From Acrocarpospora corrugata (GTDB taxonomy: Bacteria; Actinomycetota; Actinomycetes; Streptosporangiales; Streptosporangiaceae), in the NCBI RefSeq assembly GCF_009687845.1, contig NZ_BLAD01000088.1, positions 1 to 59,311 of the forward strand: a stretch of DNA of 59,311 nt, given 5' to 3'. A program made the position numbers and the translations under genes. Positions within the stretch are counted from its first letter, which is position 1; each line of letters starts with the position of its first letter. Shown piece by piece: positions 26,260 to 29,211 of the stretch. The notes beneath the pieces are model-generated. The model saw only the letters and a program-made list of their open reading frames with translations, was not told the DNA's origin and made no database searches.

Positions 26260-26835
26260 TTATCGGGGGCGTGCGACAGTGCCCGCTCCCTTTATGAGGT
26301 TGCTGTTGCGTTCCATCCCAAAACAGGTGCCAAGTCGGTCTTCTGCCTCGGCGACCAGTCCGTTGAGGAATGCCGCCAGCTGGCCGGAGGTGAGCACCGC
26401 CCGCAGCCCGACCCCCGAGCTCCCCCACGCCTCCACGAAAGCCCGCCTGGTCAGCCGCCACTTCCCCGGTTCCCGCCCGGCGCCGGGCTGCCACGACGGA
26501 ATCGTCCGGACCTGGCAGCGCAACTCCCCGCTGCCCACGATGTCGGTACGCGCCCGGTATCTGAACGTGAACAGCTCTTCCCCCGGCCCCGGAAATCGGT
26601 CATCCGGATCCCGCCAATCCCCTGCTTCCCCGCGCGCCGCAGCAACCCCACGCGCGAGCCGCGCCAGGAACCACCCGCACCGCTCCCCGACGACGCCATA
26701 GGGCGCGCCGTTCCGGCGCAGCGCCAGGGTGATCTCGTACGGCATCCCCACGCTGTCCCGAGAGAGCATCGGATGAACGCTCAGATACGAACCGTCAACA
26801 CAACGTAGTCCCCCCACGTCCCAGAGGGTATCCAC
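26260..26835 (-). CDS. Hypothetical protein downstream of DUF692 cassette
   Basis: About 191 residues of unrecognised family. No transmembrane helix or signal peptide. Visible features are alternating beta-type stretches (ELFTFRYRARTDIVGSGELRCQVRTIPSW), four cysteines scattered through the chain and a C-terminal helix (LAAFLNGLVAEAEDRL). The GTG at 26835 is preceded by GGAAG; TTG 26850 is an alternative. It lies 36 bp after the DUF692-partner gene on the same strand and may be the fourth gene of that unit, but no functional link can be shown. Confidence 0.6.
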   Translation of the reverse strand: MDTLWDVGGLRCVDGSYLSVHPMLSRDSVGMPYEITLALRRNGAPYGVVGERCGWFLARLARGVAAARGEAGDWRDPDDRFPGPGEELFTFRYRARTDIVGSGELRCQVRTIPSWQPGAGREPGKWRLTRRAFVEAWGSSGVGLRAVLTSGQLAAFLNGLVAEAEDRLGTCFGMERNSNLIKGAGTVARPR

Positions 26836-26871
26836 CGCACTTCCGCCCAAACCCTTCCCGAGCGGAAGATC

Positions 26872-27291
26872 TCAGCTCTTTCGCAGCCATCCCCGCCAAC
26901 GGGACGTTCTTCGCTGTTCGGGCGCGGCGGGCAGCCGGCCCTCGGCGCGCAGCCATTCGACGAAAGCATGGGCGTCGGCCCGCGACCCACCGGGCGGTTT
27001 GGGGCGGCCGTCGGCGTAGGCGAAGAACTCCCGGGCGAACTCCGCGCCGAGCGCCGAAACCAGTCCGGGCAGCGCCACCGCCACCAGCCCCCGGCGCTTG
27101 GCGATCAGGCTGTGCGCCTGGATCCGCAGCCTGGCCGGATCGAACCCGGGCGGCTGCGGCGCACCGGCGACCAGCGCCGCCAGCAACCGGGCTTCCTCCC
27201 GCGCCAGCCGCTCCCGGGCGGCGTCGACCGAGTCCTCAATCCGCTCTCGGGTGGCATCGACCTCGGCCGTGCCGACGGATTCCTCGATCAT
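26872..27291 (-). CDS. Small DUF692-associated protein (putative partner)
   Basis: 139 residues. N-terminal helical segment ([31 protein letters not shown]), then [46 protein letters not shown] and a basic tail. The central motif LIAKRRGL...ALG..F...F..YA resembles the small proteins that accompany DUF692 enzymes in actinobacteria (from memory grouped as SCO6045-like). Its ATG overlaps the TGA of the DUF692 gene (ATGA), so the two are translationally coupled. Partners of other MNIO enzymes bind and present the substrate peptide; this role is inferred here. Confidence 0.72.
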
Positions 27292-28145
27292 GAGCGGGTG
27301 GCGGCCCGGCTCATCGCGGCCCTGATCCGGCCGAGTTCTTCGGACAGCGCCTGGTCGCTGGGGTAGTCGTCGTCCCATTCGAGCAGCACGCCCGGCGGAT
27401 CCACCCGGGCGCAGAGTTCGGTGAGCACGTCCAGGATGGACTCCGGCACGGACGCGGTGTGGGTGTCGTGCCAGACGCCGTCGTGCGAGTGCCCTCCGGC
27501 GACGTGCACGTAGGCCAGTTCGGTGAGCGGCAGCCGGTCGAGCGCCTCCCGGGCGTCGGCGCCCAGGTTGACCTCATTGGTGTAGAGGTTGGCCACGTCG
27601 ATCAGCAGCTTCACGCCAGTGCGCTCGACGAGTTCGCCGAGGAACTCGGCCTCGGTGAGCTCGTCGTCCGGCCAGCCGAACAGGGCGGCCACGTTCTCCA
27701 GTGCGAACGGCACCGGCAGCTCGGCCTGCGCGATCTTGATGTTGGCCACCACCACCGCCAGCGCGTCCCGGGTCCGCGGCACCGGAAGCAGGTGGCCCGC
27801 CTCCAGTCCGTCGCCCCTGACGAACGCCAGATGTTCGCTGACCAGCGGCGCGGCCAGCGCCTCCGCGCAGGCCGCCAGATGCCGAAGTCGCGAAATTTCG
27901 GGCTTGTCGGCTCCGCCGATGCCGAGGGCCACCCCGTGCGGGATCACGGGCACCCCGCGCTCCCGCAGCACCCGCAGCGACTCGGGCAGATTGCCCGGCC
28001 GCAGACCCTCCGCGATGACCTCGACGAACTCGACCCCGGGCAGCCGCTCCACGGTCAGATCGATCTCGGCCCGCCAGCCGATCCCCACCCCGAGCTCGAC
28101 CCGGCCGCGATCAGCCGCGACGACCCCGCCGGGATCAGCCGTCAC
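27288..28145 (-). CDS. DUF692 family multinuclear non-heme iron oxidase (MNIO)
   Basis: About 285 residues, TIM-barrel DUF692 family (MbnB/TglH relatives). Candidate metal ligands, numbered from GTG 28145: H70 (VIPHGV), H105 (SEHLAF), E150-N151 (FALENVA), D183/N186 (IDVANLYTN), H214 and H219 (YVHVAGGH), D227/H229 (DTHTAS) and E256 (LLEWDDDYP). Characterised members modify peptide cysteines using a mixed-valent iron centre. It follows the Cys-tailed TIGR04222 gene and precedes a coupled partner-like gene. The start is ambiguous: the N-terminus contains a 20-codon duplication, and GTG 28184, overlapping the upstream stop, is an alternative. Confidence 0.88.
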
Positions 28146-28178
28146 CACCCCGAGTTCGGCCCGGTCGCGATCAGCTGC
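28086..28178 (-). repeat. 60-bp-period duplication across the TIGR04222/DUF692 junction
   Basis: Two near-identical 33-bp copies (28086-28118 and 28146-28178) are offset by 60 bp, an in-frame 20-codon duplication. The TIGR04222 stop codon lies in one copy; in the other the same bases are read in the DUF692 frame, repeating a motif [11 protein letters not shown]. Confidence 0.75.
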
Positions 28179-29211
28179 CGCCACCGCACCCACCACCACC
28201 GCAGCTGGAACCGCCGCCCCCACAGCTGGAACCGCCACCGGAGTCGCTGGAACCGCCGCTGCTGAAGTCGCCGCCCCCGAACCCACCCGGGTCCGAGCCC
28301 CACGAACCGCCGAAGTCGCTGGACCCACCGCCACCTCCGCAGGCGCCCGCCGCGCAGCCCCCGCCGGAAGAGCCCTGCATGTGATCCTCGCGGGCGATCT
28401 CGTCCGCGTCGGGCGAGTTGAACTCGCCGAGGCCGTACAGGGCCACCGCGCCGCCGACCGCCGCGTAGGCGAAGGTGTTGTCGTTGACGCCGTAAGCGCC
28501 GTGGACGGGCGAGTGGATGATGGGCATGTGCCCTGAGCCCCGCCGGAAAGTGACCCGGGCCGCGCTCAAGGAGTCGTAGCCGGCTCTCGTCAGGAGACTG
28601 CGGAGGGTGCGCTGGTTGGCCTGGTGCCTGATCAGCGCGTACAGGCTGAAGAAAGCGCCGGAGATCACGGCCAGGATGTTCCCGACGCCGACCGGCACCG
28701 CCTGGGTCGCGATCAGGACCACCGAGAGCACCCAGTTGATCCCGGACAGCGCGGCGAACCAGCCGAGGATGCGGTTGTAGGAGCGGCCCTGCGCGAGCGC
28801 GGTCTCGGGGACCATGTAGCCGCGGCCGGTCAGCCGGTGCATGATCCCGATCAGCGCGGGTCCTTCGGCCATCGCCCGGCGCACCGCGCCCGCCGTCTGG
28901 CCGCCAGGCACGCTCGCCAGGTTCAGGACCTCCTGCTCGACCGCCTCGCGCGACCCACCGGACCCGGACACGGCGGCCAGTCGCCCGCCCCGGGACACCC
29001 GCAGCCGGCCCTGCGCGCTGAGCAGCGCGATGGCCGTGTTCACGGTCCGCCTCGGCCCCCCGGCCAGGTACGCGAGCTCGTACACCTCAAGCGGGGGACC
29101 GCCGAGCGGGTGCACAGAACGCACCCGGCGATGCTCGCGTTTGATCGAGGACGAGATCGAGACAATGAGCACCGCGATCACAAACGCGGGGACCAGAAGC
29201 ACCAGTTCCAT
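28171..29211 (-). CDS. TIGR04222 membrane protein with Cys/Gly/Ser-rich C-terminal tail
   Basis: 346 residues. N-terminal membrane helix (about 2-20), a cytoplasmic winged-helix-like region ([30 protein letters not shown]), two further helices (about 150-200) and a tail from residue 278 of almost only Gly, Ser, Asp and Cys. All five cysteines of the protein lie in this tail: 286, 291, 330, 337 and 342, the last three in [19 protein letters not shown]. Such low-complexity Cys tails are the reason this family has been suspected of post-translational modification. ATG 29211 has GGGGAGG upstream; the DUF692 oxidase gene follows immediately. Confidence 0.88.

Follow-up and report, generated by a model that had tools for sequence, protein, structure and literature searches.

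Can a multinuclear non-haem iron-dependent oxidase (MNIO) take the tail of a resident membrane protein as its substrate? The question is raised by a locus of Acrocarpospora corrugata (RefSeq assembly GCF_009687845.1, contig NZ_BLAD01000088.1, positions 1 to 59,311; this whole stretch of 59,311 nucleotides is hereafter called the window). In this locus, a gene for a TIGR04222 membrane protein is followed by an MNIO (DUF692) gene and by a third gene encoding a putative partner protein. All cysteines of the membrane protein lie in its C-terminal tail, which an earlier note, made from the sequence alone, had proposed as the target of the oxidase. We consider it probable that the three genes form a three-component protein-modification cassette, in which the MNIO and its partner would oxidise the tail cysteines of a cytosol-facing membrane protein. 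The most likely product is a membrane-tethered modified tail, perhaps metal-binding.

The earlier note had regarded this tail as a new substrate class. Its central idea is not new, since the same TIGR04222-MNIO proposal, with PME-type 2 partners, appeared as a prediction in July 2025 (Antoine et al., 2025; PMC12452194). As far as the available passages of that paper tell, more than 1,000 cysteine-containing proteins without signal peptides precede MNIO genes, 40% of them belong to TIGR04222, and subsets of the TIGR04222 Ser/Gly/Cys tails are proposed as MNIO substrates. The clusters described there, mostly from Actinomycetota, involve the same gene families and the same tail-substrate proposal as the window. 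Neither another publication of the proposal nor biochemical proof of TIGR04222 tail modification was found in the literature searched, which was mostly open-access. What is new here is the near-constant presence of the partner, with fusions that we read as natural, the Gly that follows most tail cysteines, single-helix versions of the tail, and the proposed cytosolic placement.

The oxidase and its proposed partner

The MNIO gene product matches the Pfam family PF05114 (MbnB_TglH_ChrH) with 261 bits against a gathering score of 25. The closest NCBIfam model is MNIO_BufB, at 182 bits and under its cut-off of 310. As the earlier note had stated, the metal ligands are intact: H52, H87, E132, D165, N168, H196, D209, H211, and E238 (numbering from GVGIGWR) are all present and are invariant in 7/7 aligned sequences, the window's included. 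The positions other than N168, D209, and H211 are assigned as ligands from the family at large and from their conservation. In our own mapping, by alignment to 3BWW, N168, D209, and H211 are equivalent to N175, D242, and H244 of HvfB, which are among its metal-binding residues (PMC13419390, available in part). The start of the MNIO is ambiguous owing to a direct repeat at the junction of the TIGR04222 stop and the MNIO start (window 28082-28190; 49 nt, 80% identity, spacing 60), and in-frame GTG codons occur at 28184, 28148, and 28088.

The partner open reading frame (ORF) begins inside the MNIO stop codon, and the ATGA overlap that the earlier note had reported was found at 27291-27288. A Pfam search with the 139-residue partner returned no families, and it thus carries neither a DUF2063 signature nor the combination of DUF2063 and RiPP recognition element (RRE) that marks PME-type 1. 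Its position behind the MNIO gene and the lack of that signature agree with the DUF2063-like partners named PME-type 2 (Antoine et al., 2025; PMC12452194, as far as available). Two of 26 partner relatives match DUF2063 weakly, and the profile alignment with DUF2063 by hhalign is likewise weak (12%, against 0.1% for a control with the MNIO alignment); the partner alignments A1 (26 sequences) and A5 (48) are selections of sequences in hand. A PDB sequence search with the partner profile gave no matches. The top-ranked solved match to the predicted fold, with a modest score, is MbnC, itself an MNIO partner. The partner is probably a DUF2063-like protein of PME-type 2.

Conservation of the cassette

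We surveyed 250 genomes of the window's family (Streptosporangiaceae) and regarded genes as linked when they lay within 5 kb of each other, with linkage counted among the 150 TIGR04222 matches listed. TIGR04222 was detected in 162 genomes (149 above cut-off) and MNIO in 110. Most MNIO matches (94/124) are linked to a listed TIGR04222 match, and 114 of the 150 listed TIGR04222 matches, from 93 genomes, are linked to an MNIO. All 114 lie on the same strand as the MNIO, 109 of them upstream and five downstream.

A profile of the third gene placed a partner behind 98/124 MNIO matches (one MNIO gene being counted twice), comprising 92/94 of those linked to a listed TIGR04222 match and 6/30 of the unlinked ones. 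As for the two linked MNIOs left over, one has both MNIO and partner in a single 557-residue frame; the other runs off its contig, and its partner opens a different contig. Among the six unlinked MNIOs with a partner, three begin no more than 121 bases from a contig end. When the partner was searched alone in the 250 genomes, 99 strong and two marginal matches were obtained. All but one of the strong matches (98/99) fall within 1 kb of an MNIO, with a largest gap of 672 bases, and the remaining one is the contig-split case. That the TIGR04222 protein, MNIO, and partner travel together supports the reading of the third gene as an MNIO partner. Its near-universal presence beside linked MNIOs of this family differs from the published account, in which PME-type 2 partners occur in at least 10% of clusters and many clusters are seemingly partner-less (PMC12452194, available passages).

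The same arrangement is seen beyond this count. Among named loci (the best 80 of 475 by MNIO similarity), all but three contain TIGR04222 (77) and all but two contain the partner (78); contig ends cut two of the former three and both of the latter. A survey of 216 genomes of the class found TIGR04222 in 75 and MNIO in 43. A further six families of the class show the order TIGR04222-then-MNIO as well (15 genomes, 16 rows), in a table of 54 listed rows from outside the window's family that score at least 41.6 bits. The obligate co-occurrence for which the earlier note had looked to such a neighbourhood comparison is not supported: TIGR04222 is commoner than MNIO in the family survey (162 vs. 110 genomes), Cys-free TIGR04222 proteins follow fused MNIO-partner genes in one other genus of the class, and there are MNIOs without a TIGR04222 gene in the vicinity. 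In the published survey, 490 of 1372 TIGR04222 genomes were reported to be without MNIO (PMC12452194, in the part available).

A single open frame spans MNIO and partner in 17 plus 13 ORF rows from 23 class genomes, with some genes listed twice, and in one family genome, for a total of 24 surveyed genomes. Some of these genomes lack an adjacent TIGR04222 gene. Because the MNIO frame enters the partner without a stop, we read them as natural fusions; an engineered HvfB-HvfC fusion is active, according to the accessible part of PMC13419390. In a separate locus (L209, positions 2298-2627, genome G216), an MNIO is fused to a genuine DUF2063 domain with a weak NGO1945_C match.

The cysteine tail and its association with MNIO

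A residue count confirmed that the window protein has exactly five cysteines (286, 291, 330, 337, and 342), all in its last 69 residues, for which the chance under random placement is 2.8e-4. This tail also contains 34 Gly, 16 Ser, and 4 Asp. C291, C330, and C342 are nearly invariant in TIGR04222 alignment A4, a selection of 38 sequences in hand that includes the window's. The residue that follows a tail cysteine is Gly in 473/564 cases, Ala in 49, Ser in 32, and charged in four, in tails that are 43% Gly, and this Cys context is kept while the other tail sequence is variable. A Cys-Gly preference has been described for the MNIO pair FonBC, which modified one Cys-Tyr substrate but failed to process those tested with a charged residue following the Cys, while other captophorin families use Cys-Lys (PMC12668002, available in part).

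The tail cysteines track the presence of an MNIO. At least two cysteines are found in 112/114 listed linked TIGR04222 tails, and of the 36 unlinked listed rows, two with incomplete ORFs were dropped, leaving 10/34 tails Cys-free and 6/34 with one Cys. When only Gly-rich tails were compared (at least 12 Gly in the last 60 residues), at least two cysteines occur in 127/127 MNIO-linked tails vs. 3/13 from genomes without an MNIO match (Fisher p 5e-13, a value that ignores kinship). The clearest case is that of congeners G079 and G109, which keep the domain and a Gly-rich but Cys-free tail and have no MNIO match. Together with the co-travel of the cassette, this association supports the tail as MNIO substrate, as the earlier note had suggested.

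A strict rule of cysteines only with MNIO was also considered and is refuted by multi-Cys tails away from MNIO and by Cys-free tails beside MNIO. At least two cysteines in the last 60 residues were found in 14/23 family and 4/12 class rows with the MNIO elsewhere in the genome, and in 6/22 rows from genomes without an MNIO match. Cys-rich and Cys-free TIGR04222 copies occur in tandem in G421 and G413. In genus g87, distant TIGR04222 paralogs at five loci (L396, L397, L409, L413, and L415) have one tail Cys, mostly next to Gly.

Single-helix proteins with a Cys-Gly tail

Four of the 18 MNIO loci examined (L439, L441, L443, and L444) have no TIGR04222 match within them and encode, near the MNIO, a predicted protein of 83-104 residues in which a basic stretch joins a single hydrophobic helix to a Cys-Gly tail. 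The ATG of the single-helix gene overlaps the MNIO stop as ATGA in L439 and L441. In L443, provided that translation begins at the ATG, the overlap measures seven bases; the gene of L444 lies 457 bases beyond the MNIO. A partner match is also present in L439, L441, and L443. Judged from these sequences, the Cys-Gly tail is separable from the TIGR04222 domain and the domain is dispensable, which argues that the oxidase exists for the tail. TIGR04222 proteins have been reported in sizes from 70 residues up, so such short forms may be among those already counted; single-helix tails and MNIO-partner fusions of this kind are not described in the available passages of that paper (Antoine et al., 2025; PMC12452194).

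The TIGR04222 protein and its relatives

The window protein matches NCBIfam TIGR04222 with 94 bits (cut-off 43). Its predicted architecture comprises a first transmembrane (TM) helix (residues ~3-21), a winged-helix/GOLPH3-like domain, a TM hairpin (residues 136-168 and 176-204 in the structure model), a 15-residue ALYGL helix (245-259), and the Cys tail. The model has a predicted local distance difference test (pLDDT) score of 80 overall and below 50 in the tail. No Pfam family was matched by the window protein, and the gathering score of GPP34/GOLPH3 (PF05719) was thus not reached; weak PF05719 matches were found in 2/38 TIGR04222 members (best E 0.0025). A PDB fold search with the model gave no matches at E <= 0.001, and unrelated helical chains score as high as GOLPH3 or higher, so that the proposed GOLPH3 relation depends on profile and fold evidence combined. 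The best hits of a PDB sequence search with the TIGR04222 profile were weak matches to Crp/MarR-type helix-turn-helix proteins (best E 0.0091).

GOLPH3/GPP34 and DUF2207_C, the two families to which the TIGR04222 domain may be related, do not match each other (0.6% by hhalign, in a comparison that omitted one of 21 GPP34 loci). GPP34 proteins are not known to have the TM helices. In contrast to the Cys tail of the window protein, 17/19 DUF2207 tails are Cys-free. GPP34, GOLPH3, and DUF2207 are not mentioned in the main text of PMC12452194, as far as it was available. Three DUF2207 relatives (L325, L327, and L330) have Gly/Ser-rich, Cys-free C-terminal tails whose last residues are SW, and these tails are possibly the counterpart of the TIGR04222 tail.

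Comparison with known MNIO systems

The systems grouped as captophorins (bufferins, oxazolin, and fontiphorin) likewise combine an MNIO and a partner that act on several cysteines in short motifs, and the EGKCG captophorins share the Cys-Gly context of the window-type tails. Captophorin precursors mostly carry Sec signals, whereas here the tail is part of a membrane protein; the window protein has 346 residues, a hydrophobic segment near its N-terminus, and a TM hairpin in the model, and does not look like a small secreted precursor. The captophorin partner has a DUF2063 signature and an RRE, in contrast to the short helical protein without that signature found here. To our knowledge, characterised MNIO products are peptides, many of them exported. 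The methanobactin enzymes MbnB and MbnC are also an MNIO and partner, and MbnC is the closest of the ranked chains to the predicted partner fold. Methanobactin itself is a copper-scavenging peptide with oxazolone-thioamide groups (PMC13419390, accessible part), unlike the tail of a membrane protein.

Proposed mechanism and alternative explanations

The TIGR04222 protein would be anchored in the membrane with its N-terminus outside, and its winged-helix/GOLPH3-like domain and Cys-Gly tail would face the cytosol. The small helical partner may dock on the MNIO and present the tail, whose cysteines, mostly in Cys-Gly context, would be oxidised by the iron cluster of the MNIO and O2. By analogy with the nearest characterised relatives, the likeliest product groups would be 5-thiooxazoles or a related heterocycle. 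The outcome would be a membrane-tethered tail with several modified, probably soft-metal-binding groups, and a plausible role is to buffer copper, or a metal related to it, on the cytosolic side of the membrane. The fuller version, in which a modular Cys-Gly tail on either a GOLPH3-like membrane protein or a lone helix is modified in place by the MNIO and a minimal DUF2063-like partner into thiooxazole-type metal ligands, arrayed in fixed positions along the cytosolic face of the actinobacterial membrane, is put forward tentatively, as a possibility somewhat short of even. If true, MNIO chemistry on a permanently decorated resident membrane protein would belong to the physiology of the cell and not to secreted natural products. 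The single-helix versions could serve as small, tractable substrates for the substrate question, and the topology decides where a metal-binding function could act.

Several observations weigh against a tail-modifying cassette. MNIO and partner occur without a nearby TIGR04222 gene in G125, G226, G160, and L268. In genus g87, 11/15 MNIO-first rows have fewer than two cysteines, and Cys-free TIGR04222 proteins stand behind MNIO-partner fusions at nine of its loci (L367, L369, L374-L378, L380, and L381). The sole TIGR04222 protein of class genome G420, which is ahead of an MNIO, has a Cys-free tail. On a tree of 151 sequences, ten of which are from genomes without an MNIO match (vs. 13 in the Gly-rich comparison), the MNIO-absent label changes five times and the Cys label six times, against a shuffled-label mean of 9.8; with so few changes and a p value that ignores kinship, the independent support is modest. 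The flanking housekeeping-like genes give no hint of a metal function.

The tail could instead be modified by the MNIO in the cytosol and then exported, so that the mature tail stands on the outer face as in bufferins, a course of events that we think unlikely but the strongest of the competitors. A periplasmic tail was proposed from predicted topology (Antoine et al., 2025; PMC12452194, available passages), Sec signals are found on the precursors of bufferins and oxazolin, and the hydrophobic ALYGL segment, which reaches the threshold for a TM helix in 2/38 members, could be read as a fourth one. However, the mean hydropathy of this segment over 19 residues is below 1.6 in the other 36/38 members, and it is modelled as a helix of 15 residues. 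Flanking positive charges point to a cytosolic tail in 38/38 members, in a comparison that is lopsided, and the single-helix proteins have a basic cluster between helix and tail. The order in a DUF2207 relative, read as signal peptide, outer region, TM helix, and then the TIGR04222-like domain, also tells against an external tail. The charge bias, the DUF2207 relatives, and the GOLPH3-like core favour a cytosolic tail over the published periplasmic one.

Other readings deny the tail its role as substrate. It is improbable, in our view, that the true target of the MNIO is a distant peptide, a Cys-free copy, or the TIGR04222 domain itself, with the Cys tail left as an unmodified thiol tail binding metal or serving in redox. 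The Cys-free copies behind the fusions of g87 would fit this, and Gly/Cys tails might coordinate metal through their thiolates without being modified; but Cys and MNIO co-occur, the single-helix proteins retain just helix and tail, and the Cys context fits the preference of one characterised MNIO. Least credible of all, and very unlikely, is a low-complexity linker without a dedicated role, set beside the MNIO by old conserved gene order. The chromosomal site is indeed conserved, with a pckG-like gene matched in 71/80 and an uppS-like gene in 67/80 named loci, and Gly-rich tails without Cys are also seen in some DUF2207 relatives. Yet the adjacency recurs in the six other families, strong partner matches occur only with MNIOs, bar the contig-split case, and the Cys context is kept in tails that otherwise vary. 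The tail-modifying cassette remains the preferred explanation, and its position at a conserved chromosomal site in this group suggests a standing role.

Gene layout and flanking genes

The cassette sits between the two flanking genes listed in Table 1. The source genome of the window has one TIGR04222 match and one MNIO match, and by MNIO the nearest named relatives are Acrocarpospora species (87-92% identity).

Table 1. Positions in the window of the cassette genes, the tail, and neighbouring ORFs.
Feature	Position	Strand	Remark
TIGR04222 membrane protein, 346 aa	29211 (ATG) to 28171 (stop end)	minus	NCBIfam match
Proposed substrate region: Gly/Ser-rich tail at the C-terminus (residues 278-346) with all five Cys	28174..28380	minus	
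MNIO (DUF692, PF05114) oxidase	27288..28184; conserved part 28091-27288	minus	Pfam; start uncertain
Partner protein, 139 aa, all-helical in model	26872..27291	minus	ATGA overlap with MNIO stop
Conserved 196-aa ORF (fourth ORF of the span)	26260-26850	minus	
pckG-like gene	31225-29396	minus	name read from translation
uppS-like gene	26200-25418	minus	name read from translation

The fourth ORF has no matches in Pfam or NCBIfam. It was considered as a further cassette member and rejected, as its relatives occur in 104/250 genomes, some of them on other contigs or without the cassette. Six long matches among these relatives carry one in-frame TGA.
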